Shown here in pieces: positions 24,666 to 36,616 of a DNA stretch of 54,982 nt. Under the pieces are notes generated by a model, which had not been told where the DNA came from, searched no databases, and saw only the letters and a program-made list of their open reading frames with translations. Numbering within the stretch: the first letter of the stretch is position 1; every line of letters begins with the position of its first letter. Source of the stretch: a virus; IMG/VR virus record IMGVR_UViG_3300030329_003381, positions 1 to 54,982 of that record, one strand, 5' to 3'. The position numbers were made by a program, and so were the translations under genes.

Positions 24666-24781
24666 CTTCCGTCACCTTTCTTTCTTCTGCTTTCTTTCCA
24701 CTTTGGTATATAATAACCTATCGTGAGCCCACCGAAGAAATAGGCCATACAAATTAATGTAAATCCTAAATCACCGATCAT
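24656..24781 (-). CDS. Small membrane protein (41 aa)
   Basis: The 41-codon gene overlaps the helicase stop by ATGA and the next start by 10 nt. It has one hydrophobic segment ('LGFTLICMAYFFGGLTIGYYI'-region, residues 5-25) and then a strongly basic tail ('KWKESRRKKGDGR'), so the positive end should stay in the cytoplasm. Its role is unknown, but the pattern recurs at 25920-26036. Confidence 0.55.
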   Translation of the reverse strand: MIGDLGFTLICMAYFFGGLTIGYYIPKWKESRRKKGDGRWD

Positions 24782-25923
24782 TTCTTATCCCTAATGGCTA
24801 CTATATCACCATTAACTTCTTTCTTTACCCATTTCAATTTAATCAAAGTCATAATTAAATCAGATGCATCTTGCCAATCCATACCAAAGTCCAATAAATG
24901 ATTCTTTAGTTTTAATTCACTTATTCTACCTACATCTTGTACTAAGGCCCATACTTGTGCTAATTGTGTTCCTCTTTTAATCTTAAATCTATCTCCTTTC
25001 TCATTATCAAATAAAGCATCTAGTGTAGGATCCATTTTAATTGTCAAAGTCTTTGGCATTTCTTTTACTTTCATAAGCCAATACCCTAGGGCAATTCGTT
25101 CATATAATGGTTCTTCATAATGTACTACATCTAATTCATCAAGCTTTTTATAAATAGTTCTATCAAATTCTACCTTTTCTAATTTTTTCATAATATCATC
25201 ATATCGGGTATTAATAGCAGCTTTAAGTTTACTTAATGTTAAAGTATTAGTCTTTACATTCTTACTACTTCTTCTATTCAATTTGAATTGTTTGATATCA
25301 TTAAAGTTAGGAATAAGTAATAGGAATAAGAATCTTCTAGCTAAACCACTGCTCAATTCATATCTTGCAGGTTGAACTCCAGTCCACAAAGAAAGGTTAG
25401 TTTGATATTCTATTTTACCTGCGGCTAATCTTTTCCTAACCATTCCCGAGTCTAATGCTGTAAGCAAAGCTGTATCCAATCCTGCATTATAATTTTGACT
25501 TACTGCAGCAGATATAGCTGAAAACTCTTCTATTCCTACTATACTATTACTTTCATTTCTACATAAACCAGGTGACTCTTGCGCTACACCTTCGGAATTA
25601 AATTTAGCAGTTCCTACAAATCCTGCTTCGGACATTTGTGATTCAAAAGTACAACCAACTTTAGTTCCTTTTACTAGACTTAATTCATTTTCTAAAAATT
25701 GTCTAAGCCAAAATGATTTACCGAAACCTGGAACCGTAACAAGAATAATATGTTGTCTAGTGTTAACTTTCAAACCAGCTTCTGTATAAATGCCTTTTTG
25801 CTGATTCATGATATTAAATATGTGACAACCTAAAGAAGAAATATAGTACGGTGGAAACTTTCTAGCATAGGCTACATTCCTGGCCTCTAATTCATTTAAT
25901 ATTGCTTCATATACATCAGTCAT
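24778..25923 (-). CDS. MCM-like AAA+ ATPase, probable replicative helicase
   Basis: The 381-residue protein has a Walker A 'PGFGKS' (about 65-70) and a Walker B 'IVGIEE' (about 128-133). An arginine-finger-like 'SGLARRF' lies at about 197-203. The C-terminus (about 300-375) reads as a winged helix ('RGTQLAQVWALVQDVGRISELKLKNHL' in pieces). The order and the 'GLARRF' element resemble MCM helicases, but the long N-terminal DNA-binding region of MCM is reduced to some 55 residues. A role as replicative helicase or loader fits its place near PolB and ERCC4. It may instead be a DnaC- or Rad-like AAA+ helper. Confidence 0.7.
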   Translation of the reverse strand: MTDVYEAILNELEARNVAYARKFPPYYISSLGCHIFNIMNQQKGIYTEAGLKVNTRQHIILVTVPGFGKSFWLRQFLENELSLVKGTKVGCTFESQMSEAGFVGTAKFNSEGVAQESPGLCRNESNSIVGIEEFSAISAAVSQNYNAGLDTALLTALDSGMVRKRLAAGKIEYQTNLSLWTGVQPARYELSSGLARRFLFLLLIPNFNDIKQFKLNRRSSKNVKTNTLTLSKLKAAINTRYDDIMKKLEKVEFDRTIYKKLDELDVVHYEEPLYERIALGYWLMKVKEMPKTLTIKMDPTLDALFDNEKGDRFKIKRGTQLAQVWALVQDVGRISELKLKNHLLDFGMDWQDASDLIMTLIKLKWVKKEVNGDIVAIRDKK

Positions 25924-26036
25924 CTTATTATCACTTCTATTCCCATTATTGCAAAAGTAGTTACTAGCATTACTGGTACGGTGATTGCTGGGATAATTAT
26001 CACATATAATTGTGGATATTTTTTAAACAGATTCAT
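25920..26036 (-). CDS. Small membrane protein (38 aa)
   Basis: A 38-residue protein between the ERCC4 nuclease and the AAA+ ATPase with ATGA overlap on both sides. Nearly the whole product is a hydrophobic helix ('YVIIIPAITVPVMLVTTFAIMGI'-region) behind a short basic start. Coupling to two replication genes suggests co-expression but says nothing on function; membrane tethering is possible. Confidence 0.55.
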   Translation of the reverse strand: MNLFKKYPQLYVIIIPAITVPVMLVTTFAIMGIEVIIR

Positions 26037-26713
26037 TTCGATATCACATTATCCAACATGAATCGAATTCTTTGTAATCTACTTGGACCAATTCCTGGAA
26101 CTTTAAGCAATTCATCATCATCAGCATTCACTATACATCTTACTGTAGAAAATCTATCTAAAAGATTTTGTGCGACATCAGTCGGAACATTTAATAATAA
26201 TTTAACCACTTCTCTTTGTGGGTTTTCAGTTCGTTTTATTCTTCTATCTTTAATCTGATCCAGCTTCCCTTCTGCAATCTTTTTCAAGAGTTTCGTAGCC
26301 ACCATCAAACCATCATTATGTGGATCAGAATAACCATCTTGTATCCAAATTACACTTCTCAATCCAAATCTAACTATTGCACTTGCAATTGCTCCTTGAA
26401 CGTGTTCTTCGGTTATCTTGCTCTTCTTGTAATACTTTTCTACTTCTTTGTAACTACCTGTAATAAGTAAAATTGGTATAGGCTCTGAAGCTAATCGTTT
26501 TAATTGATCTTCTAATCTACCTGATAGAAGACTTTGCATAAAATCAGAAATTGCTTTTCTTTCTATTGTAACTTTACCATCATCAGCATAAGCTGCATAG
26601 TCACCACATGATAAAGCTTTTACTGTAAATTCTATTCCATTGTGTTTAAGTAAAGTTCTTTGTTTAACTTTTTCTCTGGAATCAACAACAATCTCTATGT
26701 CTTTTGCGGCCAT
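26033..26713 (-). CDS. ERCC4/XPF-family structure-specific nuclease
   Basis: The 226-residue protein shows the XPF signature: 'VDSRE' (Asp11), 'GDYA' (Asp38) and the catalytic 'ERK' (Glu51-Lys53) followed by 'AISDFMQSLLSGRLEDQL'. The C-terminus has a helix-hairpin-helix ('VPGIGPSRLQ', about 204-213) for DNA binding. It has the compact nuclease-plus-HhH build of archaeal XPF without a helicase domain. It would cut flaps or branched DNA during replication or recombination. It overlaps QueC by 19 nt. Confidence 0.85.
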   Translation of the reverse strand: MAAKDIEIVVDSREKVKQRTLLKHNGIEFTVKALSCGDYAAYADDGKVTIERKAISDFMQSLLSGRLEDQLKRLASEPIPILLITGSYKEVEKYYKKSKITEEHVQGAIASAIVRFGLRSVIWIQDGYSDPHNDGLMVATKLLKKIAEGKLDQIKDRRIKRTENPQREVVKLLLNVPTDVAQNLLDRFSTVRCIVNADDDELLKVPGIGPSRLQRIRFMLDNVISK

Positions 26714-27435
26714 GTTTCTACTCCTTCATCATAAGCGATTGGATCTTTAATTCCTGCCTGACCGAAACCTAAGAGTCTGTATTCACAACTTGGACATTTG
26801 CCACAAGCTTTCATTCCACCTCGATAACAAGACCAAGTCTTATCCCAAGGTACTCCTACTTCCTCTCCTAATCTAACTACATCTGCTTTTGTAAGATACA
26901 CAATTGGTGCATGTACAAAAATATCATTTGTATGTGTTTTGATTACTTCGTTTACTTTTGCTATGTATTCTGGTCTGCAATCCGGATAACCAGAATAATC
27001 AATAATATTAGCACCATAAAAGATATCAGTATATCCCCATGACTGTGCATATCCAGCTGCAATGGCTAACATTATAGTATTTCTAAATGGTACATAAGTT
27101 GGTGGAACATCTGAAGTTGCACCATCTGGTATTTCAATATCAGAATCTTTACTCAAAGCTGTAACAAAATTACTTGCTAGATTATTCAAGTCAATTGTTT
27201 TCACATCAGCTTGATATTCCCAACCAACTTCTCTAGCACATATAATTTCTTTACTATGGGTCTGACCATAATCAAAAGTTATACAACCTACTTCTCTAGA
27301 ACAAGATTTAGCTAGTCCTAAACAAGTTGCACTATCCATTCCACCAGATATTATTACTAGTGTCTTAGACAAGTTCAACTTTCTTGAAGTCGACATAACT
27401 TCACTTGTTGATTTACCCCATTCCATAAAATTCAT
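26695..27435 (-). CDS. queC: 7-cyano-7-deazaguanine (preQ0) synthase QueC
   Basis: QueC is an ATP-dependent enzyme that converts 7-carboxy-7-deazaguanine to preQ0 with ammonia. The sequence has the PP-loop 'SGGMDSATC' (about 30-38), 'FDYGQTHSKEI', the 'FRNTIMLAIAAGYA' segment and the zinc-binding Cys cluster 'SCYRGGMKACGKCPSC' near residues 203-218. At 246 residues it is of normal length with all motifs kept. The gene starts with TAATG on the stop of a small zinc gene. Together with FolE, QueE and QueD in the same strand it completes the preQ0 pathway. Confidence 0.95.
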   Translation of the reverse strand: MNFMEWGKSTSEVMSTSRKLNLSKTLVIISGGMDSATCLGLAKSCSREVGCITFDYGQTHSKEIICAREVGWEYQADVKTIDLNNLASNFVTALSKDSDIEIPDGATSDVPPTYVPFRNTIMLAIAAGYAQSWGYTDIFYGANIIDYSGYPDCRPEYIAKVNEVIKTHTNDIFVHAPIVYLTKADVVRLGEEVGVPWDKTWSCYRGGMKACGKCPSCEYRLLGFGQAGIKDPIAYDEGVETWPQKT

Positions 27436-27671
27436 TAGTATAACTCCATTCCTATTTTACACATAGGACAAACTGTTTTTCCATCTACTTGTTTCATTTC
27501 TTTTGGACAAAAGTCACCAGGACATTCATCACATCTTTGCAGATGAGAACTGAAACATCCTTTACAACCTTCCATTCCGCATCCCGCACAATCTTCTATA
27601 CAATACTGACAAAGAACAATCCCACATTTACTGCATAGCACTGTATGTTCACAATGTCTGACATCAGTCAT
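27435..27671 (-). CDS. Cysteine-rich zinc-binding protein (78 aa) between queC and folE
   Basis: Fourteen of 78 residues are cysteine, arranged as repeated CxxC and CxxxC pairs ('CSKCGIVLCQYC', 'CAGCGMEGCKGC', 'CDECPGDFC', 'CPMC'). That is enough for about three zinc sites, like B-box, RING-like or DnaJ-like zinc folds. It is inserted between two pathway genes with TAATG and ATG overlaps, so it is co-translated. Its function is unknown; regulation or assembly of the modification enzymes is one possibility. Confidence 0.7.
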   Translation of the reverse strand: MTDVRHCEHTVLCSKCGIVLCQYCIEDCAGCGMEGCKGCFSSHLQRCDECPGDFCPKEMKQVDGKTVCPMCKIGMELY

Positions 27672-28252
27672 TACGCCTTTCCTAGATTAAGCAAATCTAA
27701 AAATTCTTGTCGAGGATTAAATCCTTCTGGTGGCTTTGCAAATACACCTGTTAAACTACTTGTAGTAGTTACTGTCTCAGGTTGTTTTACGCCTCGAGCA
27801 CGCATACAGTTGTGAATGCCTTTACAAACAACCATTACCCCTTTACAATTCAAACCTTTGTGTAAAACGTTTGCCAACTCAGAAGTATAATCCTCTTGTA
27901 TCCAAGGATATCTTGCAAGATCAATAGCAATACGTGAGAGTTTTGAAAGTCCTATTGCTTTTCCTTCTGGAACATATCCTATGTATACGTCGTATTCTAT
28001 CAACAACATATGATGTGGACACATTGAAAACGTTTTAATTGGGTCTTGTACCACTAAGCCATTATTAATTGTTGGGAATGTAGCTTTAAAATGATCACAC
28101 AATGATTCATCGATTTGTTTTTTAGACAAACCTTGATAAACTGCGAGCCATTTAGCAAATCGTTTTGGCGTGTCATTAAAGTTGATATCTCCACCCCAAC
28201 CCATGACATCAACTAATTCTTCGATTAGTCTTTCTATCTTTTCGGTTTTCAT
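27671..28252 (-). CDS. folE: GTP cyclohydrolase I (FolE type)
   Basis: FolE turns GTP into dihydroneopterin triphosphate, the first step towards preQ0. The 193 residues keep the zinc ligands Cys78 and His81 in 'CPHHMLLIEYDVYIGYVPEGK' and Cys149 in 'HNCMRARG', and the substrate loop 'GLSKLSRI'. I chose the ATG that overlaps the QueE stop by ATGA rather than an upstream in-frame ATG inside QueE, because it gives the standard N-terminus. In a virus this step feeds base modification. Confidence 0.93.
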   Translation of the reverse strand: MKTEKIERLIEELVDVMGWGGDINFNDTPKRFAKWLAVYQGLSKKQIDESLCDHFKATFPTINNGLVVQDPIKTFSMCPHHMLLIEYDVYIGYVPEGKAIGLSKLSRIAIDLARYPWIQEDYTSELANVLHKGLNCKGVMVVCKGIHNCMRARGVKQPETVTTTSSLTGVFAKPPEGFNPRQEFLDLLNLGKA

Positions 28253-29139
28253 ATCCCGTCCATTTCTCCTGGCCAATATATTTTGTGAAGTTGACATAAT
28301 ACTCTACAATTATTTGTGTGAACTGAGTTTAAAAACGTTTCGGCGAACTCAGCATAGGACAACCATCCTTTGGGCAATTTACCCGCCTCATGTGCCGGCT
28401 GTTGAAACTTTTCAAGATACAGACTATAATCCCTTAAAGTCTCTGCGTATTCTTTATTCTTTTTAACTTCAGCTTCTGACCACATGACAGGTTGAATCGT
28501 AACGTTAATAGGATCGAAGAATTTAATTTGGTTCAAAGCATATGTAATATCTTCTTTAGTTTTTGCTATAGCCATTTTAAATTCAATTTTATTTCTTAAA
28601 GTTTCATTTTCTATACAAGCACCAATAAATTCATTCTGTACTGTTTGATCTCCTTTAAATGCTCTACTAGCTGGAGGTTTTAAATCAATAGTAATGAAAT
28701 CTAATTTATCAAGTAATGGAACATATACTTCTTCTCCTGCTGTAATCATATGCCATATCTTTTTATGATTAGGATTTCTCTTTTCAAACCATTCTATGAA
28801 ATGCAATATATCTTTTGAGAACTCTGTTGGTTCACCACCAGTCCACCAAATACGATCTACATTCCAAAACTCTTTCATAAACATTTCTTCCAAGTCTTCA
28901 AATGTATATCTTGTACCTAAAGGTTTACTATTTTTCTTTCCAGGCCAAGTAGACATTGCATCACACCAGGAACAGCCTACATTGCATCCTTGAAATCTGA
29001 CAAAGATACAGCTTTGTCCTATAAAATTACCTTCACCATTAATTGTAGGATAAGGTCTTTCATATAAATATAAAGCCTCTTCTCCCCAGCCTAATGGTTT
29101 TTCAATCACATTCGTTTGATTCTTCATTTTCATCTTCAT
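28249..29139 (-). CDS. queE: 7-carboxy-7-deazaguanine synthase QueE (radical SAM)
   Basis: QueE converts 6-carboxy-tetrahydropterin to 7-carboxy-7-deazaguanine. The sequence has 'PTINGEGNFIGQSCIFVRF' and the radical-SAM cluster motif CxxxCxxC ('CNVGCSWC', Cys52, Cys56, Cys59). 'WWTGGEPTEF' and 'FITIDLKPP' follow as in the family. The length, 296 residues, is a little above usual. Several ATG codons lie close together at the start ('MKMKMK'), and the true start could be four codons in. It overlaps FolE by ATGA. Confidence 0.93.
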   Translation of the reverse strand: MKMKMKNQTNVIEKPLGWGEEALYLYERPYPTINGEGNFIGQSCIFVRFQGCNVGCSWCDAMSTWPGKKNSKPLGTRYTFEDLEEMFMKEFWNVDRIWWTGGEPTEFSKDILHFIEWFEKRNPNHKKIWHMITAGEEVYVPLLDKLDFITIDLKPPASRAFKGDQTVQNEFIGACIENETLRNKIEFKMAIAKTKEDITYALNQIKFFDPINVTIQPVMWSEAEVKKNKEYAETLRDYSLYLEKFQQPAHEAGKLPKGWLSYAEFAETFLNSVHTNNCRVLCQLHKIYWPGEMDGI

Positions 29140-29173
29140 CTCTTAACCATGCCCATTCTGGTCTTTCTTTCAT
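29102..29173 (-). CDS. Possible micro-protein upstream of queE (23 aa)
   Basis: A 23-codon frame starts by ATGA overlap on the stop of the small zinc gene before it and runs into the start of queE. The product is acidic with three aromatic residues at the start ('ERPEWAWLRDEDENEE'). It may be a real coupled micro-gene or a device that controls queE translation. Support is only position and coupling. Confidence 0.3.
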   Translation of the reverse strand: MKERPEWAWLRDEDENEESNECD

Positions 29174-29283
29174 CTCAAAGCAGTTCCACAATGCAAGCAT
29201 CTCAAAACTTCTTCGCTCCAATCTACTCCACAATGATTAACGGTATTGTTTGTTTGGGTTGTTGGGCCATTGTCCGGTGACAA
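29170..29283 (-). CDS. Possible small zinc-ribbon protein (37 aa)
   Basis: A 37-residue product that starts at TTG inside the preceding gene. It has 'HCGVD' and 'CLHCGTALR', the back half of a short zinc ribbon with Trp between. A longer reading in this frame exists but would be read across a gene that is clearly real in another frame, so the short start is chosen. It leads by ATGA into the next small frame. Confidence 0.4.
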   Translation of the reverse strand: MSPDNGPTTQTNNTVNHCGVDWSEEVLRCLHCGTALR

Positions 29284-29446
29284 TATCTTTTCCAGCTTGC
29301 CATTCAGGACTTCCTCTTTCAACACTGATTCTACCTTTCCCGGAACATCTTCTACAGTTGGCGATCGTGACTCTTCCAATTTCATCTCGTCTCCGATATT
29401 GACCAGTTCCTTTGCAAGTATGACACCAAACATTTTCTTTGCTCAA
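29237..29446 (-). CDS. DnaJ-type zinc-finger protein (69 aa)
   Basis: The protein has 'CHTCKGTG' and 'CRRCSGKG', two CxxCxGxG knuckles like the zinc centre of DnaJ. A basic tail follows ('SPEWQAGKDIVTGQWPNN'). It is coupled to the QueD gene by ATGA. A lone DnaJ-like zinc centre can act as a protein or RNA-binding module; no specific role is known. Confidence 0.65.
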   Translation of the reverse strand: MSKENVWCHTCKGTGQYRRRDEIGRVTIANCRRCSGKGRISVERGSPEWQAGKDIVTGQWPNNPNKQYR

Positions 29447-29817
29447 ACTTCAATACCATACTTTCCAGTCTCCCAAATTCGTAAGCCCACTTTCGCGTCT
29501 TTATGTTTAAGTAATAATTCGACTTGGATTAATTTTTGTAATTCTTTTACTAGAGTTTCTGTATCCATTCCACCAATGTATCTAATTTTATTTTTAGACT
29601 CATCTGGTTCGCCTAAATGATCTAAACTTCCCAACACTGCTACTTTAATGTCTTTAAAGTCGACCCAATCTTTCGTCTTAACTCTAACTTCTAAATATGC
29701 ATCTAAATGATTATGTGGTTTAAGACAAGCCTTGTCAACTAATTCAGGTCGGTCTTTAGCTATGAAATGTCTAAAACTAAACGTAGTTTTAAATAAACGA
29801 GTATAGTTAATAGCCAT
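29443..29817 (-). CDS. queD: 6-pyruvoyl-tetrahydropterin synthase / QueD
   Basis: QueD makes 6-carboxy-tetrahydropterin, the second step to preQ0. The zinc ligands appear as His17 in 'FSFRHF' and His35/His37 in 'CLKPHNHLDAYLEV', with Cys31 in the catalytic place. 'DHLGE' and the final 'RIWETGKYG' agree with the family. Length is 124 residues, as usual. The spacing is slightly divergent ('PHNH' for 'HGHN'). It sits within two genes of QueE. Confidence 0.85.
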   Translation of the reverse strand: MAINYTRLFKTTFSFRHFIAKDRPELVDKACLKPHNHLDAYLEVRVKTKDWVDFKDIKVAVLGSLDHLGEPDESKNKIRYIGGMDTETLVKELQKLIQVELLLKHKDAKVGLRIWETGKYGIEV

Positions 29818-29822
29818 CTCCT

Positions 29823-30176
29823 TTACCTCCCTTCTTCTTCTTCTTTCGTTTCATAGTCATCTTTCCATACACCTTCTACTTGCTCTAATTCCCCTTTCAC
29901 GGATAATATTGCATATCCTAGTCTTACATAATTCAAAAGATCTAACCAGTTATCTTTTATAGACTCGTGATTTGGTTCTTTTGCATTAGGAGAATATAAG
30001 CTTAATAATCTATTTAAATGTTTATTCATAAAAGTATAGGCACTATACCATCCAAATGGGAACATATCCGATATGTCAACTGATCCGCTATTGTAATCCT
30101 GATCTTTTGAACCGAAAAGCAAAGCGTCAGCCTCATCAGTCATTTCAGCTATTTTCTTCCTTACTTCGTCATCCAT
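29823..30176 (-). CDS. DUF1599/MazG-like nucleotide-associated protein
   Basis: The 117-residue helical protein has 'KDQDYNSG', 'FMNKHLNRLLSLY' and 'DNWLDLLNYVRLGYAIL', the pattern of DUF1599, a MazG-related helical family linked in the literature to modified-nucleotide systems. Such proteins may bind or hydrolyse nucleotides. Its position directly beside QueD and PolB makes clean-up of nucleotide pools plausible. The tail is a Glu/Lys run. Confidence 0.65.
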   Translation of the reverse strand: MDDEVRKKIAEMTDEADALLFGSKDQDYNSGSVDISDMFPFGWYSAYTFMNKHLNRLLSLYSPNAKEPNHESIKDNWLDLLNYVRLGYAILSVKGELEQVEGVWKDDYETKEEEEGR

Positions 30177-30321
30177 CTTCTTCTACCTTCTTTTCCTGAG
30201 CTGCTATTACTTCATCCACACTAATAGCTGTGCACGAATGCGTAACAGTATCTATAACGTACCAATAATCGTCTGTAGTTATATACATCTTACCTTCTTT
30301 TACTTCAAACTTACAATCCAT
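30169..30321 (-). CDS. Micro-protein (50 aa)
   Basis: A 50-residue protein overlapping the DUF1599-like gene by 8 nt and the nuclease by 11 nt. It begins 'CKFEVKEGKMYITTDDYWYVIDTV', a beta-hairpin-like start, and ends in a helix with charged residues. No motif is recognised; support is the open frame filling the interval. Confidence 0.45.
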   Translation of the reverse strand: MDCKFEVKEGKMYITTDDYWYVIDTVTHSCTAISVDEVIAAQEKKVEEDG

Positions 30322-31123
30322 TTAAATCAAAATCTCCTTCACCAAAACTATACAAACAATCATTCGAATATTTACACCAACCACATAATGGACTCAAGTT
30401 CTTCTCGAACGGTCCTTTTGCTTTAATTTTTTTCACCAATTTATTATATTGATTCTCAACTGCCTTTAATGACATTGAATGGAATCTTTCAACATGATAT
30501 TGTTTTAGCATTGGATTTATACAAGCCCAATGTGTTACAGGTAAATCATACATCTTAAGTTTGTTAAGGATAATTGCATACCACCCTGTTTCCGCTCTTA
30601 GACTCGTCAAGGTCCTATCTTTGGACAAATTATAAGAACGTCCAGTCTTATATTCCACAACACATAAGGCTTTCTCTGCTGGTAAATAATCTAACCTATC
30701 AACATGCCCTGTTCGTGGATACTCACCAGGCAAGTTAACATATAGCTCTGTTGCTACTGGCATGTAAACTTTGTCTAGCTCTTTCTCGTATGCCGTCTTT
30801 GCCATGATAAATCGTCTAGCCTCAAATTCAGCAAAGTAATCAAACCAATCGTCAATGCGTTCATTGTCAGGCAGCCGAGTTCGAATATATTTAACTAGAT
30901 CCTGTTCACTATCAAGTCTCCTCATCTCCTCAAGATCTATTTTTGGAAAGAAATCATCACATCCTACATGGAAGATTTGACCTTTTCCAGTAGGGGTTTT
31001 ATCATCAACTATCGGTTGAACATAAGCATCATAATCTGGGTCACGGAAAAAGAAATACTCGAATTGTTTCTCACAATGCTTAAACATCATGAATGCAGTC
31101 TTTCTAATCTTTTTGTTTTCCAT
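30311..31123 (-). CDS. RecB/Cas4-like PD-(D/E)xK nuclease with probable iron-sulfur cluster
   Basis: The 270-residue protein has a RecB-family nuclease core: His52 ('IFHVG'), Asp142 in 'GHVDRLDYL', then Glu157 and Lys159 in 'VVEYKTG', and 'ETGWYA'. One cysteine near the N-terminus (Cys17) and three near the C-terminus ('CGWCKYSNDC', Cys246, Cys249, Cys255) match the four-cysteine cluster of Cas4/AddB nucleases. It probably degrades DNA ends during recombination or replication. A Cas4-like role in CRISPR is unlikely because no cas gene is near. Confidence 0.85.
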   Translation of the reverse strand: MENKKIRKTAFMMFKHCEKQFEYFFFRDPDYDAYVQPIVDDKTPTGKGQIFHVGCDDFFPKIDLEEMRRLDSEQDLVKYIRTRLPDNERIDDWFDYFAEFEARRFIMAKTAYEKELDKVYMPVATELYVNLPGEYPRTGHVDRLDYLPAEKALCVVEYKTGRSYNLSKDRTLTSLRAETGWYAIILNKLKMYDLPVTHWACINPMLKQYHVERFHSMSLKAVENQYNKLVKKIKAKGPFEKNLSPLCGWCKYSNDCLYSFGEGDFDLNGL

Positions 31124-31358
31124 TTCTAATCCTCGAGTAGATTAACATACCAATATTTATCATAGGTATCACTTCAATCAAATCTACACCATACAGGAAG
31201 AAATCTAATACTGGATGTACATGAGAAATTATACCCAGTTCTAAATAAAGATCTGCGTTCCATATCATATGTGGTATTTGGATATAAATGATAATCGCAG
31301 TTAATAATAATGATTCTGTTATATGTGAATCATACCATTGCCAGAATCTATTCCACAT
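31104..31358 (-). CDS. Membrane protein (84 aa)
   Basis: Two hydrophobic regions (about 15-32 'ESLLLTAIIIYIQIPHMI' and 44-75) flank aromatic residues. The start 'MWNRFWQWYDSH' is Trp-rich. It overlaps the nuclease start by 20 nt. It belongs to the set of small membrane proteins placed between replication genes. No family is known to me. Confidence 0.6.
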   Translation of the reverse strand: MWNRFWQWYDSHITESLLLTAIIIYIQIPHMIWNADLYLELGIISHVHPVLDFFLYGVDLIEVIPMINIGMLIYSRIRNGKQKD

Positions 31359-31470
31359 CTTTACCTACCTCTTTTCCACAAGTCCTACAATAAAATTTAA
31401 ATTCCTTAAAGAATAAATTAGGATGGTTACATATCCAAGCTCTTTCATGGAATTCGTCTACATCACTCAT
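31348..31470 (-). CDS. Zinc-ribbon-like micro-protein (40 aa)
   Basis: A 40-codon gene with 'WICNHPN' and 'CRTCGKEVG', giving Cys14, His16, Cys28 and Cys31 as probable zinc ligands. It starts inside the end of the gene before it and overlaps the membrane protein start. One of at least twenty such tiny zinc proteins in the window. Confidence 0.55.
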   Translation of the reverse strand: MSDVDEFHERAWICNHPNLFFKEFKFYCRTCGKEVGKDVE

Positions 31471-31639
31471 CTTCACCTGCCTCCTTTGCTTCATCTGCTT
31501 TAGCTAAAGCCATTGCTGATAATTTAATAAAAGTGTTCCTTTCATCTTGATTTGGATTATTTTGTTTAGCAAACGCTCGTTCATACCAATTAAGTATGTT
31601 TTGGTAATCCTTTACTGTTAATGTTATATCCATACTCAT
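31463..31639 (-). CDS. Helical micro-protein behind PolB (58 aa)
   Basis: A 58-residue protein that overlaps the PolB stop by ATGA. It is helical with 'YQNILNWYERAFAKQNN' and 'TFIKLSAMALAKADEAKEAG'. There is no cysteine or membrane segment. A polymerase partner is a possible role because of the coupling, but no motif confirms it. Confidence 0.55.
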   Translation of the reverse strand: MSMDITLTVKDYQNILNWYERAFAKQNNPNQDERNTFIKLSAMALAKADEAKEAGEDE

Positions 31640-33999
31640 TTAAACCATTGATCCAATTGTTGTTCTCCATCTATTACTACTCTCCAATGATATCCCATTG
31701 CATCAAGAATAGGTTCGAATTTCTTCTTCACTATCTTCTCAAACATAATACCAAAGTCTATTTCAACTTCTGGAGGCAATTTATGATGTTCTTGTATGCA
31801 AATAACATCTGTGGGCATTAATGGTGAACTGACCCTTTTGACATATAATAATCTTGGGGCAGCTGATTCATCATACCTCCACCCTAGAGTTTTTCCATAT
31901 TCCATTCCTCTCCACCAAGGCGAAGATTCATTCGCAGTGTGTATCTGTCTCGGCACCGCTATCTCATACGGATTAACGTCCTCAAATTTATTTTTTATAT
32001 TTTTTATCAAAGCCAGAGCTCCGCTTTCGTTGTCGTCGATCAACCAAACCTTAAAGAAATGTTCCATAGTATGCTTTAATATATCAGGAGTATCACTACG
32101 TCTTGTTTCGAATCCTTTAACGTACACTTCATTAGTCTTAGTTCCTTCTGACCAAGTCATCTTTGCAGCATACTTTTTCTTAACAGGTACCCATTTACCT
32201 TTACTTATCTTTCTTCTCTTAAAGGCAATCTTATCAAAGAACTTTTCAAACTTTACGTCAATCTCGCTTCCTGTAACTCCCATAGACTTTAGCTTAGTAT
32301 CTAAATATTCATGTATCAAATCTTTAACTATAAATCCACCATCGAGATTTTTACAGTTCACAAATACACTATCTGTATCTCCATATTCTACAGGATAACC
32401 TTTGGTTTTTAAATGCTCAGCAAGCCCATTAATAACCATTCTTCCAACTGCTGTAATTGCATTCGCACAATCGGGATCAAATAATCTGAATCGTGGAAAG
32501 GCCATGACGCCGTAGAAGCTAGTAATAATGAATTTATCAGCGGTATCTTCCTCCTCTAATGCTTTGTATTGTGGTGAGTCATGTCCAAATTCTTTTTCAG
32601 CAGCACGCTTTCTTTCTCTTACTCTCTCTCTCAGAGCTCTGAATTCAGTAATGGTTTCTGGCATAATTCCTTTTTGGATTTTAGGATCAAGAAACCTATA
32701 TTCATTTCCTTTTTCATCGTTAATCACAATTGTTCCTTCTTTGTTTTTTGTCTCAGGCGATATATTAAAGCCCGCAATAATGCTAGGATATAGAGCTGCT
32801 GCGTCAAATACTCCAATGTTGTAGTGAGTACCTGGTGACGGCAATAATACCATGCCTCCTTTAACATCTCTTTCAATTTCTCCTCTAGGTTTACTTGGTA
32901 GTATTCGATTACCTCGTCTTAATAAGATCGCATGGTCAATTATTTGTTCTTTAGAAGTCGTCTGAGGTAATGTGCAACCACTTAATTTAGCAACAGCTAA
33001 TGCTTGTTCTATTAATTTCTCTTTGACTATAATATTCTTTTCATTCTCAACATCAGTCTGACAATAATTAATAACTATATTTGGATCTTTTTCCCATGTA
33101 GCTTTAATTTTATCTCCATAATCTTCCCACTCTACATCTAGTTCTTTTTTAGCTACCGCATGCAAGTTATAACTATTCATCTGACCTGATGGATTCTTTT
33201 TAACCTTATATGCAGCCAAGGCATCAAAGATTATCCTACCTGCTATTTGAAATTTATGATGTACTTTTTTATCTGGAGCAGTCCAATGTCTTATTTCAGC
33301 TTTGTGTACAGGTGATAATGCATTCTTATCAATGCCAAGGTGGTCCATTCTAGCCATAATCCAACTAGCGTCATAGTCAACATTCCAACCTGTAATAATG
33401 TCTGGATCATGTTTCTTTAATAAGTTTAAAAACTCTTTCCACATTTCTTTCTCATTTGTTCCATTTGTAGAGAAAGTATATTGTTTATCTTCATAGCTAT
33501 CCCAAACAATCACACAAGCAGTTTGATATTGTGGTGTTTCCCAAGTTGGTACTATATCTGGTGTAGATATAACTTCAACGTCAACTACCCAAGTTCTTAA
33601 TTCAATATCAGTTGCATCTGCTGGTACGATTCTATTATATTCATTTAATTCAAAACCATCAGTAATACCTAGTTCTATTAACTTGCATTCAGGCCAATGA
33701 ATATCTGCTTCATGATGAGGTAATCCATCTCTAAGATCAATTACGTCACCTGGCATTTTAGAAGTAATCTTCCATAAAGGTTTTCCATAGATACTAGTGT
33801 ATCCTGATTCAACTTTTTTAACTTTCTTTTGTAAATCTAAATTATAATCTGGTTCTGTAGCAGACCAAAAGTAACTTGTTAATCCTTCTTGTCTAATACT
33901 ATAACGTTTTCCGTCATCTCCTCTAGCAAAGACAAGGAGAATAGGTTTATAATTTCCTCTCTCGTATAATTGGATTGCGTCAATTTTACGGTAGCGCAT
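31636..33999 (-). CDS. polB: Family B DNA polymerase
   Basis: The 787-residue enzyme copies the viral genome and proofreads. The exonuclease domain shows ExoI 'VVDVEV' (Asp140, Glu142), ExoII 'GWNVDYD' (204-210) and ExoIII 'YCQTD' (312-316). The polymerase domain shows motif A 'DAAALYPSI' (399-407), motif B around 'SFYGV' (494-498) and motif C 'YGDTDSV' (539-545). The size and the order fit archaeal and viral PolB. The N-terminal uracil-sensing pocket is not clear. It is protein- or RNA-primed; no primase is evident in the window. Confidence 0.95.
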   Translation of the reverse strand: MRYRKIDAIQLYERGNYKPILLVFARGDDGKRYSIRQEGLTSYFWSATEPDYNLDLQKKVKKVESGYTSIYGKPLWKITSKMPGDVIDLRDGLPHHEADIHWPECKLIELGITDGFELNEYNRIVPADATDIELRTWVVDVEVISTPDIVPTWETPQYQTACVIVWDSYEDKQYTFSTNGTNEKEMWKEFLNLLKKHDPDIITGWNVDYDASWIMARMDHLGIDKNALSPVHKAEIRHWTAPDKKVHHKFQIAGRIIFDALAAYKVKKNPSGQMNSYNLHAVAKKELDVEWEDYGDKIKATWEKDPNIVINYCQTDVENEKNIIVKEKLIEQALAVAKLSGCTLPQTTSKEQIIDHAILLRRGNRILPSKPRGEIERDVKGGMVLLPSPGTHYNIGVFDAAALYPSIIAGFNISPETKNKEGTIVINDEKGNEYRFLDPKIQKGIMPETITEFRALRERVRERKRAAEKEFGHDSPQYKALEEEDTADKFIITSFYGVMAFPRFRLFDPDCANAITAVGRMVINGLAEHLKTKGYPVEYGDTDSVFVNCKNLDGGFIVKDLIHEYLDTKLKSMGVTGSEIDVKFEKFFDKIAFKRRKISKGKWVPVKKKYAAKMTWSEGTKTNEVYVKGFETRRSDTPDILKHTMEHFFKVWLIDDNESGALALIKNIKNKFEDVNPYEIAVPRQIHTANESSPWWRGMEYGKTLGWRYDESAAPRLLYVKRVSSPLMPTDVICIQEHHKLPPEVEIDFGIMFEKIVKKKFEPILDAMGYHWRVVIDGEQQLDQWFK

Positions 34000-34228
34000 G
34001 ATCGACCATTCCGTTACTCATCTTGACATACTTTTTATTTTCAATGGCAGCTGATAGAGCAATAGCATATTCGATAAATTCATCAACAAATACTTCTGCA
34101 ACAACTTGGTCTTCATTTATTAATTTAAGTATAGGCCCCATATGTGGATCATATTTCCATTCCTTGTGAGTATAATAAATACTTTCAGTTTGAGTTTCTC
34201 TATGAGGATCTCCGTGATCAATTACCAT
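33986..34228 (-). CDS. Hypothetical protein upstream of PolB (80 aa)
   Basis: The protein starts with a His-rich 'VIDHGDPHRETQTES', then 'HMGPILKLINEDQVVAEVFVDEFIEYAIALSAAI', which forms one beta strand pair and a helix. It overlaps PolB by 14 nt and the phosphoribosyltransferase by 7 nt. I do not recognise it. Confidence 0.55.
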   Translation of the reverse strand: MVIDHGDPHRETQTESIYYTHKEWKYDPHMGPILKLINEDQVVAEVFVDEFIEYAIALSAAIENKKYVKMSNGMVDHALP

Positions 34229-34674
34229 TCTTCTGTCTCCTCATTCCATTCCCATGGAAATTGTACCCATGAATTTGTCTCTGTGGTCTGTCCAGCATAT
34301 TCAGGACTGTGGGCTGAAGTATGTGACTTGTGAACCAATACTGCTGTTGCAAATTCATATTCATCATTCTTATCCATTATTAATAATGTTCTCATTACAT
34401 TATTAAGTGTTTCACCTGAATCGGCAATATCATCAACTATTAATATTTTCCTATCTAGTATTGGTAAATCATAATGTAAAGGATAGGAATTGTTCATTTT
34501 AATAGTATCGATTGTTTTCATATTAAACTTTTTGGCAAGCATTAAAGCTGGTGTCAATCCGCCCATCTGAATACCAATTATCTTATGAGGTATCCAACCT
34601 TGATCGAGTAGTTGTTCGTAGATATAATTAATACCGTCTTTTACATCTGCTTCTGTTAGTGCTAATATGTTCAT
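34222..34674 (-). CDS. Phosphoribosyltransferase (purine type)
   Basis: A type I phosphoribosyltransferase of 150 residues. The PRPP-binding motif is 'KILIVDDIADSGET' (about 75-88) and the fold opens with 'HKIIGIQMGGLTPALMLAKKF'. The enzyme joins a base to ribose-5-phosphate. It overlaps the TGT/DpdA-like gene by ATGA and so is made together with it. That enzyme type releases guanine from its substrate, so salvage of guanine (or of another purine) is a reasonable role. The base is not determined by sequence. It resembles short archaeal hypoxanthine/xanthine types in build. Confidence 0.8.
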   Translation of the reverse strand: MNILALTEADVKDGINYIYEQLLDQGWIPHKIIGIQMGGLTPALMLAKKFNMKTIDTIKMNNSYPLHYDLPILDRKILIVDDIADSGETLNNVMRTLLIMDKNDEYEFATAVLVHKSHTSAHSPEYAGQTTETNSWVQFPWEWNEETEEW

Positions 34675-35414
34675 TTCTTTTTCAACTTGCTCTCTATTCC
34701 TAGTTTAAATCCTTTAACATGGTAATTTAATGATTGTACATCTAAAGGAAATTGTGTAAAGTAATAACCTAATTGATCTTGGAACTCTGTTGCGTATGTT
34801 ATCTTAACTGGATATTTTGTATCCATACTAACTAGTTTCCATGGTTTAGAATGGAATGTAGCTAATTCTTGCAAGTTAACAAAGCCCAAGAAATGTACCT
34901 TCTTAAACTTTTTATTAGCACCTTCCCATAATTCATCAGCAGCTTTAATTCTATCTTTCCAAAAACCTACGTGCTTTGGAATACAAACAATATCAACTGC
35001 TTTACTATAATCATCCATTACAGCATTGTAACATTCTATCAAGTCATCCATTGTTCCTCCTTGTGGAGCAAACATTAATTTAGGTCTATTATCTAATTGT
35101 ACCAAATCTGGAATAAAATCTCTAGCTAGACTAATACTTTTATTTACACTACCCATAACATCAGGTATTACTGCCCAAGTAGGTTCGAGTATACTTATAA
35201 TATCCATATAATCTTGACTATCCATAGATGCACCAAATTCCCAAGCACCATTATCTAACATTATCTGGCGTCCATTCTTTTGTAAATTATCCATAGCTGC
35301 CATATACTTTCTACCAGTTTCATCTTGGCGATTTAATAATGGTGCTAAACAAAATGTAATATCTCCTACATCCAAGTCCGAATACTTTACAGGTAGATCA
35401 ATTGCTAATTTCAT
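34671..35414 (-). CDS. TGT/DpdA-like 7-deazaguanine transglycosylase
   Basis: The 247-residue protein resembles the barrel of tRNA-guanine transglycosylases as reduced in phage DpdA proteins. It has 'IMLDNGAWEFGAS' (51-63, Asp54), where TGT enzymes have their 'DSGGFQ' segment. 'AVIPDVMGS' (81-89, Asp85) follows, then 'LMFAPQGGTMDD', 'VCIPKHVGF' and 'VHFLGFVN'. The TGT zinc cysteines are absent, as is common in DpdA. The reaction would exchange guanine in DNA for preQ0. The preQ0 genes nearby support this. Substrate DNA versus tRNA cannot be read from sequence alone. Confidence 0.75.
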   Translation of the reverse strand: MKLAIDLPVKYSDLDVGDITFCLAPLLNRQDETGRKYMAAMDNLQKNGRQIMLDNGAWEFGASMDSQDYMDIISILEPTWAVIPDVMGSVNKSISLARDFIPDLVQLDNRPKLMFAPQGGTMDDLIECYNAVMDDYSKAVDIVCIPKHVGFWKDRIKAADELWEGANKKFKKVHFLGFVNLQELATFHSKPWKLVSMDTKYPVKITYATEFQDQLGYYFTQFPLDVQSLNYHVKGFKLGIESKLKKK

Positions 35415-35719
35415 CTATAGTACCTTTTATCTACTTCTAATAACTTATTGTACATTTCTTTTCCATAGTCAGTGGCTTTGTAAAAGTTTACATACGTATC
35501 TAATCGTTTAATATATTCTGTATCAACCATTACCATATTGGCTTTAATTAATTTTCTAAGATGATAGTTCATAACACCTCTAGTTTTATGTGCTAGGTAT
35601 CTTTCCATACGTGCATAATTTACTCCATCTTTGTTACTGAGTAAATATTCTAATAATCGAACAGACTTTTCATCTTGTAATGTGTGTCCTACTAGTGCGA
35701 GTCTATCTATTCGTTTCAT
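35411..35719 (-). CDS. Winged-helix DNA-binding protein (102 aa)
   Basis: A compact winged helix: 'SVRLLEYLLSNKDGVNYARMERYLAHKTRGVMNYHLRKL' (helices 1-3) and then a 'MVMVDTEYIKR' wing. It overlaps the transglycosylase gene by ATGA and heads that operon after a U-tract terminator, so it may regulate the modification genes. Leading residues 'KRIDRLALVGHTL' form an N-terminal helix. Confidence 0.7.
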   Translation of the reverse strand: MKRIDRLALVGHTLQDEKSVRLLEYLLSNKDGVNYARMERYLAHKTRGVMNYHLRKLIKANMVMVDTEYIKRLDTYVNFYKATDYGKEMYNKLLEVDKRYYR

Positions 35720-35723
35720 AATT

Positions 35724-35732
35724 AAAAAAAAA
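35724..35732 (-). terminator. U-tract between the RecA-like gene and the winged-helix gene
   Basis: On the minus strand a CCTTCCCC is followed by T9, ending about four bases before the winged-helix start. An archaeal polymerase would stop here, separating the Sak4-like gene from the transglycosylase operon. Readthrough would link them. No TATA box stands clearly between the two. Confidence 0.55.
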
Positions 35733-35740
35733 GGGGAAGG

Positions 35741-36616
35741 TTAAACACCAAATACCTCTTTCGGAACTTCGCCTTCAAGACTTTTCTTCAATGAATCGAA
35801 TGTGATATCTTCAACTTGTAAATTATTTACAGAATTGAATCGACATTTTTCAATCGTACCCATTCTCTTCACTTGCATCTTGGCAGTTGCTTTTCCGCCT
35901 TCCATTATAGGCATTGGTCGTTTCTCTACGTGAACACTTATGTCCACATAGTATGTGCTTTCACCTTGAGCTTTAGCTTTTGTTTGATTAGTCAAGTTCC
36001 CACTTGCATCATAAACAGCACCACTTCTACTGGTAAATACTACATGACAAGGTCGTGAGAGTAATCTCATAACTAGCCATCTATATTTAGCATTAGCATG
36101 TTGCCATTCAGTTCGCATCATAAATTCCTTTCCTGACGATTTGCTTACTTTTGTAGCTGCATTGTAATGTAACCACAAACCTAACCAAGACCAAATATCA
36201 CTGATTGAATCAACAATAATTGTTCCGCCTTCGACATCTTTTAATGCTTCTGTAGCTAATTCTACTTTCTCTAATGATCTAATTGGATCAATAGCAAAAG
36301 GATCCTCATCTGTTGCGCCGCCACTCTTTTGTGGTTTGTCAGTATAAGGTTCACTACATTCCATTATTCGAATGTCTTTATCTGGGAAATGATGTTGCAA
36401 TTGGGAGACTCCAAACTCTGTAGAAATTACATAGATTGGCTCAGGGAAACTGAGACCAAAATATGTTTTACCTACTTCCTGTTCGCCCCAAACTAAAACC
36501 TTTAATCCTCTACGAGAATTGGTTTCAGTAATAGGTTTAAACAGAGCATCTACTTTAGATGCTGTGCTGTCAGCTGCCTTAGCTTTATCGGCTTTATTCA
36601 TATCGCTCATTGACAT
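35741..36616 (-). CDS. RecA-like ATPase (Sak4/AAA_24 type)
   Basis: The 291-residue protein carries a Walker A 'GEQEVGKT' (44-51) and a Walker B 'TIIVDSISDI' (about 131-140). 'HVVFTSRSG' follows, as in phage Sak4/AAA_24 recombinases. It has no N-terminal DNA-binding domain apart from a Ser/Lys-rich lead. Such proteins promote annealing or strand invasion with a single-strand-binding partner, which is encoded two genes upstream. Several ATG codons lie in the first ten residues, so the start could be later. Confidence 0.75.
   Translation of the reverse strand: MSMSDMNKADKAKAADSTASKVDALFKPITETNSRRGLKVLVWGEQEVGKTYFGLSFPEPIYVISTEFGVSQLQHHFPDKDIRIMECSEPYTDKPQKSGGATDEDPFAIDPIRSLEKVELATEALKDVEGGTIIVDSISDIWSWLGLWLHYNAATKVSKSSGKEFMMRTEWQHANAKYRWLVMRLLSRPCHVVFTSRSGAVYDASGNLTNQTKAKAQGESTYYVDISVHVEKRPMPIMEGGKATAKMQVKRMGTIEKCRFNSVNNLQVEDITFDSLKKSLEGEVPKEVFGV

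Follow-up and report, generated by a model that had tools for sequence, protein, structure and literature searches.

In an uncultured tailed virus, represented by metagenomic sequence alone, we identified a gene module that probably directs 7-deazaguanine modification of viral DNA, a reading to which we assign a probability of about 0.78. The module was found in IMG/VR virus record IMGVR_UViG_3300030329_003381, which was analysed over its 54,982 nucleotides (hereafter the window) and also encodes a large terminase (TerL) and a tape-measure protein. Guanine replacement is known from other viruses and hides their DNA from host defences. In the proposed mechanism, FolE, a probable QueD, QueE and QueC would convert GTP to 7-cyano-7-deazaguanine (preQ0), and a DpdA-like transglycosylase would remove guanine from the viral DNA and insert preQ0 by the type of base exchange used by tRNA-guanine transglycosylase (TGT). 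The resulting deoxynucleoside, dPreQ0, would then shield the genome against host restriction, while a Gpt-like phosphoribosyltransferase (PRTase) would convert the expelled guanine to GMP, with GTP returned to FolE.

Three of the enzymes for preQ0 synthesis, all encoded on the minus strand, can be assigned securely to their families from sequence. QueC, the 7-cyano-7-deazaguanine synthase (26695-27435, 246 residues), matched PF06508 (2e-64) and TIGR00364 (194 bits, cut-off 150) and carries an SGGMDS motif and a Cys cluster. FolE, a type IA GTP cyclohydrolase I (27671-28297, 208 residues), matched PF01227 (8e-39) and PHROG 2197 (4e-43). QueE (28249-29139) matched PHROG 2076 (QueE) at 7e-23 and TIGR03365 at 5e-22, the latter with a score under the NCBIfam curated cut-off; the assignment draws on that PHROG profile together with the radical-SAM motif (CxxxCxxC, here CNVGCSWC) and the place of the gene. 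The coordinates, strand and lengths that an initial annotation of this DNA gave for the pathway genes are correct. That annotation also listed FolE, QueD, QueE and QueC as all present on one strand with intact motifs, which the profiles bear out for QueC, FolE and QueE; QueD keeps its motifs and its identity is probable, not certain. By gene content the GTP-to-preQ0 set is thus complete, with three members recognised by hidden Markov models and QueD probable.

The QueD candidate (6-carboxytetrahydropterin synthase; 29443-29817, minus strand, 124 residues) occupies the same place in the related locus L011. Its motifs include CxxxHxH (CLKPHNH), DFxxIK (DFKDIK), LDH, DTE and a C-terminal WET. In a profile-profile comparison (hhalign), the protein aligned in register with 37 phage QueDs over 117 columns, a weak match (P=0.0014). 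An AlphaFold2 model built on four sequences was of low confidence (predicted local distance difference test, pLDDT, 65), and its top five PDB matches were 6-pyruvoyl-tetrahydropterin synthases (PTPS), the best with E = 0.0066. Phmmer against PDB sequences returned chance-level matches only. Based on its motifs and modelled fold, the 124-residue protein is a probable divergent QueD.

The key enzyme of the module is the predicted DpdA-like DNA guanine transglycosylase (34671-35414, minus strand, 247 residues). The initial annotation placed a TGT/DpdA-like protein a few kilobases upstream of the que genes and named a fold unlike TGT/DpdA as grounds for abandoning the idea. The AlphaFold2 model of the protein (pLDDT 93.3, predicted template-modelling score, pTM, 0.90) matched the TIM barrel of TGT in all 50 of its 50 best Foldseek hits in the PDB, with E-values from 5.6e-8, probability 1.00 and query TM-scores of about 0.52-0.62. 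In a viral structure library the same model matched M4SLA5 of phage phiST, R9TGF0 (DpdA2) of Vibrio phage nt-1 and several phage queuine transferases. Thirteen residues (D54, N55, E59, P84, D85, Q118, G119, R155, H174, L176, G177, E183 and D198) are invariant in 32 aligned DpdA-like relatives, including both catalytic-type aspartates expected at barrel-strand ends, D54 (in LDN) and D198 (in SxDT). The order of these residues fits that of the TGT motifs DSGGFQ, D156, QGG, GE and D280. By motif order, D54 and D198 presumably correspond to TGT D102 and D280; D198 would then probably act as the nucleophile, with D54 as the probable acid/base. No CxCxxC..H zinc site of the tRNA-type TGT is present in the protein, whose only cysteines are at positions 22, 128 and 144, and a tRNA-type TGT identity was rejected because this site is missing. 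Taken together, the modelled fold, motifs and homologues identify the 247-residue protein as TGT/DpdA-like, in agreement with the initial annotation, and the fold test that it named came out in its favour. DpdA3 and DpdA4 were considered as possible classes for the protein.

Direct sequence searches with the protein returned little. A direct search gave a marginal match to DUF6610, and tblastn gave 1e-8 to a Flavobacterium phage gene annotated as DpdA. Phmmer against PDB sequences produced chance-level matches only. The family profile found 7ui4 ('DNA-guanine transglycosylase') as its best match among PDB sequences at only E=0.27, and its similarity to the DpdA of phage 9g (E=1.1; hhalign P=0.0039) and of Vibrio phage VpKK5 (E=0.038; hhalign P=2.8e-5) was very weak. 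A sister protein in locus L026 matched Pfam TGT at 7e-5, under the cut-off of that family. A short DpdA lineage that stands apart from those already characterised, present in a tailed virus of archaeal type, looks new. As a separate observation, Pfam DUF6610 (PF20314) gave sub-threshold matches to the DpdA-like proteins of the window, L011 (9998-10732), Campylobacter phage CP220 and Weizmannia phage Youna2; from these matches, DUF6610 itself may be a family of DpdA-type transglycosylases.

A single-protein search of IMG/VR with the DpdA-like sequence found nothing, and an alignment search (A1, seeded from the Flavobacterium phage match) succeeded, with 401 relatives. Eighty loci were fetched, several of them short fragments and many incomplete. 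Homologues of FolE were found near DpdA in 57 of the 80, of QueD in 50, of QueE in 50 and of QueC in 40. Since the loci were picked by DpdA alone, the nearby que genes are independent support for the pathway. Furthermore, loci L011 and L012 share thirteen genes with the window in the same order, with DpdA about 41-42% and PolB, the family B DNA polymerase, 55% identical; conservation of the whole block in order at only 41-55% protein identity excludes chance. Tree inference put the window and L011 in a clade of their own (100/98), away from Flavobacterium phage immuto and CP220; the nearest neighbour of this clade, with moderate support (91/80), is a group to which L013 and L026 belong. Short DpdA-like proteins of a second group were noted in L013, L018-L021, L026, L046 and L089, often with QueD nearby where the locus is long enough, whereas neither QueC nor FolE was seen within 10 kb.

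Directly beside dpdA lies the purine (Gpt-like) PRTase gene (34222-34674, minus strand, 150 residues; PF00156 1.6e-13), whose start codon overlaps the dpdA stop. The protein carries the phosphoribosyl pyrophosphate (PRPP) motif ILIVDDIADSGET, and its nearest solved relatives are the purine PRTases 4z1o (GpT-2; 2.4e-10) and 1vdm. Of the 80 fetched DpdA loci, 35 have a PRTase homologue in the neighbourhood, compared with none among 80 PolB loci of about the same length, an imperfect control composed mostly of cellular genomes. In VpKK5, a PRTase is fused to the FolE N-terminus (residues 1 to about 115, with the PRPP motif). Similarly, Pseudomonas phage Baskent_P4_1 and Variovorax phage VPv64 encode PRTase-FolE fusions together with QueE, QueC, QueD and DpdA. 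The gene directly adjoins queE in Pseudomonas jumbo phage Callisto and stands within the queD-dpdA block of immuto. A Gpt-like PRTase that is coupled to dpdA here and, in other phages, joined to FolE or adjacent to QueE also looks new. The recurrence of this fusion or adjacency across several DpdA lineages indicates a shared function, and the simplest one would be salvage of the guanine released by DpdA to GMP and then to GTP for FolE, a proposal that we put forward tentatively from the gene arrangements. Text searches of the literature, with a 2023 Nucleic Acids Research paper on phage 7-deazaguanines outside their coverage, found no paper proposing a guanine-recycling PRTase.

With regard to the base that ends up in DNA, the initial annotation saw no ArcS, QueF-like or Gat-QueC enzyme and expected unchanged preQ0, not archaeosine. 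Our profile searches agree: they detected neither QueF above cut-off nor ArcS (DUF5591) in the window and its 70,958-base relative G001, and QueC has no glutamine amidotransferase (GAT) domain and no additional domain. Sub-cut-off matches to PF14489 (QueF) in two relatives were rejected, as they fall in the FolE region, just as a match in VpKK5 falls in its FolE; a PF14489 match in the window spans 23 residues with an internal stop and was also rejected as QueF. A minimal set of FolE, QueD, QueE, QueC and DpdA yields dPreQ0 in Mycobacterium phage Rosebush and in phage CAjan, where dpdA is essential (PMC6884629). Because no further preQ0-modifying enzyme was found, and given the Rosebush and CAjan precedent, unchanged preQ0 is still the best prediction for the viral DNA. 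The main group of relatives, in which QueF is present in 54 of the 80 fetched loci and a formyltransferase in 59, probably makes other derivatives.

Several of our observations weigh against a DNA modification module of this composition. The QueD candidate had no match in Pfam, PHROGs or NCBIfam, nor in a direct PF01242 search, and its L011 relative apparently lacks the histidine of the DH pair. Sequence similarity of the transglycosylase to DpdA1 and DpdA2 is very weak, and the virus record may be a fragment that could leave out a gene for QueF or an amidotransferase. In Brevundimonas phage MaInes, a PRTase gene lies by FolE and ribonucleotide reductase with no QueC, QueD or QueE in the part inspected, so the PRTase may be linked to GTP or deoxynucleoside triphosphate (dNTP) supply in general. 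A PRTase without Que genes in the stretch read also occurs in three unannotated records, of which two are short. The lack of a PTPS family match, relaxed thresholds included, is what would be expected if the 124-residue protein were something else and the host provided 6-carboxytetrahydropterin. We consider this unlikely in view of the motifs, the operon order, the conserved neighbour in L011 and the top fold matches. It is very unlikely that the module serves tRNA, with the virus raising preQ0 and the TGT-like enzyme altering host or viral tRNA in infection. The fold is that of TGT, preQ0 is the archaeosine precursor in archaeal tRNA, and the sequence reveals neither a tRNA gene nor a DNA target. 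However, the protein is far shorter than the matched TGT structures (337-379 residues), its three scattered cysteines leave no zinc site, and the annotated proteins closest to it are DNA transglycosylases of phages. Moreover, its viral fold matches include DpdA2 of nt-1, a phage whose DNA carries dPreQ0 (PMC6884629).

The position of the PRTase next to dpdA would also fit a route in which it makes a preQ0 nucleotide that the viral polymerase incorporates as a modified dNTP, leaving another role for the TGT-like protein. For Campylobacter phages, a dNTP route had been put forward at one time (PMC6884629), and related PRTase genes lie beside ribonucleotide reductase in phiST and MaInes. Yet the PRTase resembles ordinary guanine/xanthine/hypoxanthine enzymes, no thymidylate-kinase-like (deoxynucleoside monophosphate kinase) homologue was found in the window, no ribonucleotide reductase was among the window proteins scanned, and the phages with a PRTase-FolE fusion also encode DpdA. 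Together these points make the dNTP route quite improbable. Also unlikely, in our judgement, is a final base other than preQ0, with an enzyme of the host or a viral gene that escaped notice producing archaeosine, 7-amido-7-deazaguanine (ADG) or 7-aminomethyl-7-deazaguanine (preQ1) in the DNA. Minor amounts of the ADG and archaeosine deoxynucleosides (dADG and dG+) occur in HVTV-1, for which a host role was considered (PMC6884629), and both the frequency of QueF in the related loci and the possibly fragmentary record point the same way; the window and G001, in contrast, have neither QueF above cut-off nor DUF5591.

Set beside the known systems, the preferred reading, preQ0 insertion into DNA, is familiar chemistry in a divergent virus whose DpdA and QueD are divergent too. 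CAjan and Rosebush share with the window FolE, QueD, QueE, QueC and a DpdA, have no amidotransferase or QueF, and have dPreQ0 measured in their DNA (PMC6884629). They differ in having a DpdA of the 9g type (about 310 residues in 9g and VpKK5), whereas the window encodes a short DpdA in a virus with an archaeal-type PolB. VpKK5, a member of the Queuovirinae, has QueE, QueC, QueD, the PRTase and FolE domains and then DpdA, but its PRTase is the N-terminal part of FolE and its DpdA is of the 9g type. Immuto and CP220 encode homologous transglycosylases (25% and 23% identical to that of the window, respectively). In immuto, QueD, QueE, PRTase and FolE lie beside the transglycosylase, with an additional QueF, formyltransferase and thymidylate-kinase-like gene that set it apart. 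Youna2 combines QueC, QueD, QueE, FolE and a DpdA-like gene in a single block with no QueF annotated there, and its QueC is the best annotated phage match to the window QueC (45%); Youna2 is, however, a bacterial phage with a family A polymerase, and its DpdA is only 18% identical.

Among archaeal viruses, haloarchaeal Druskaviridae carry the preQ0 pathway (PMC8651126), and the DNA of HVTV-1 contains mainly dPreQ1, the preQ1 deoxynucleoside (PMC6884629). Like the window, HVTV-1 and the Druskaviridae are tailed viruses with an archaeal-type PolB and with FolE, QueE, QueD and QueC in a single block (PMC6884629, PMC8651126). HVTV-1 differs in that it has QueF and no DpdA of the window's family. 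According to the initial annotation, a full set in a virus with PolB-type replication and archaeal promoters would be a notable case; PolB and the pathway do occur together here, but HVTV-1 and the Druskaviridae precede it. In HVTV-1 itself, the hypothetical protein gp69 (L007 33803-34963), which adjoins folE, shows DpdA-like HLLG and SID motifs and, from these motifs, may be the missing HVTV-1 transglycosylase.

The host is likely archaeal, mainly because of the kinship of PolB (31636-33999, minus strand, 787 residues; PF00136 2.5e-30), the best lineage marker. Its best annotated relative is in Halorubrum tailed virus 27, a haloarchaeal virus, and its best GTDB genome relatives are all archaeal (33 of 33), with Methanomicrobiales and haloarchaea represented. 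A related contig carries an AAA_5 and VWA pair, and annotated AAA and VWA genes are found in HVTV-1 too. TerL gives no information on the host, its best annotated matches being bacterial phages at 27% identity. A search of 14 genomes of PolB relatives found no TerL relative, and 340 genomes from a single class of marine archaea, that of locus L161, yielded neither a TerL nor a DpdA relative; these searches had no positive control and carry little weight. The PolB loci from GTDB genomes contained none of the other window genes tested, apart from unrelated FolE matches.

In transcription order, the block (26033-36616, minus strand) encodes a Sak4-like ATPase, a 102-residue protein, the DpdA-like protein, the PRTase, an 80-residue protein and PolB, followed by an 84-residue protein, a PD-(D/E)XK (Cas4/RecB-like) nuclease, a 117-residue protein, the QueD candidate, an 87-residue open reading frame, QueE, FolE, a 78-residue Cys-rich protein, QueC and an ERCC4 nuclease. 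Neighbouring genes show many overlaps of a few bases, for example ATGA at the PRTase start. The 102-residue protein (35411-35719, minus strand) is directly upstream of dpdA, its stop overlapping the dpdA start (TAGATGA), and from its sequence is a possible winged-helix regulator. The 78-residue zinc-ribbon-like protein (27435-27671, minus strand) had no family match in the PHROGs and NCBIfam scans. All close relatives (L002, L011 and L012) retain it between folE and queC, and it could have an accessory role in the pathway. Elsewhere in the window, a matrixin-type (M10) metallopeptidase gene (1239-1919) lies near the left end of the genome, and a 381-residue P-loop ATPase (24778-25923), kept in relatives and without a Pfam or PHROG match, reads by eye like an MCM/AAA+ relative.

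The PRTase, on which the initial annotation was silent, is the most informative extra part of the module and deserves specialist attention. Its link to dpdA offers an inexpensive and testable answer to a neglected question, the fate of the guanine expelled during exchange, of which up to 19,747 could be exchanged per genome copy. It is conceivable, though we would not yet call it probable, that viruses which swap out guanine through base exchange possess an arm devoted to recycling it, so that each exchanged base helps fund the next. If true, such an arm would be expected where guanine replacement is extensive. More broadly, the module would add to the known cases of DNA guanine replacement a lineage of uncultured tailed viruses whose polymerase is of archaeal type and whose transglycosylase is not closely related to any characterised one. 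It suggests that viruses also deploy guanine replacement against archaeal defences in habitats other than salterns.

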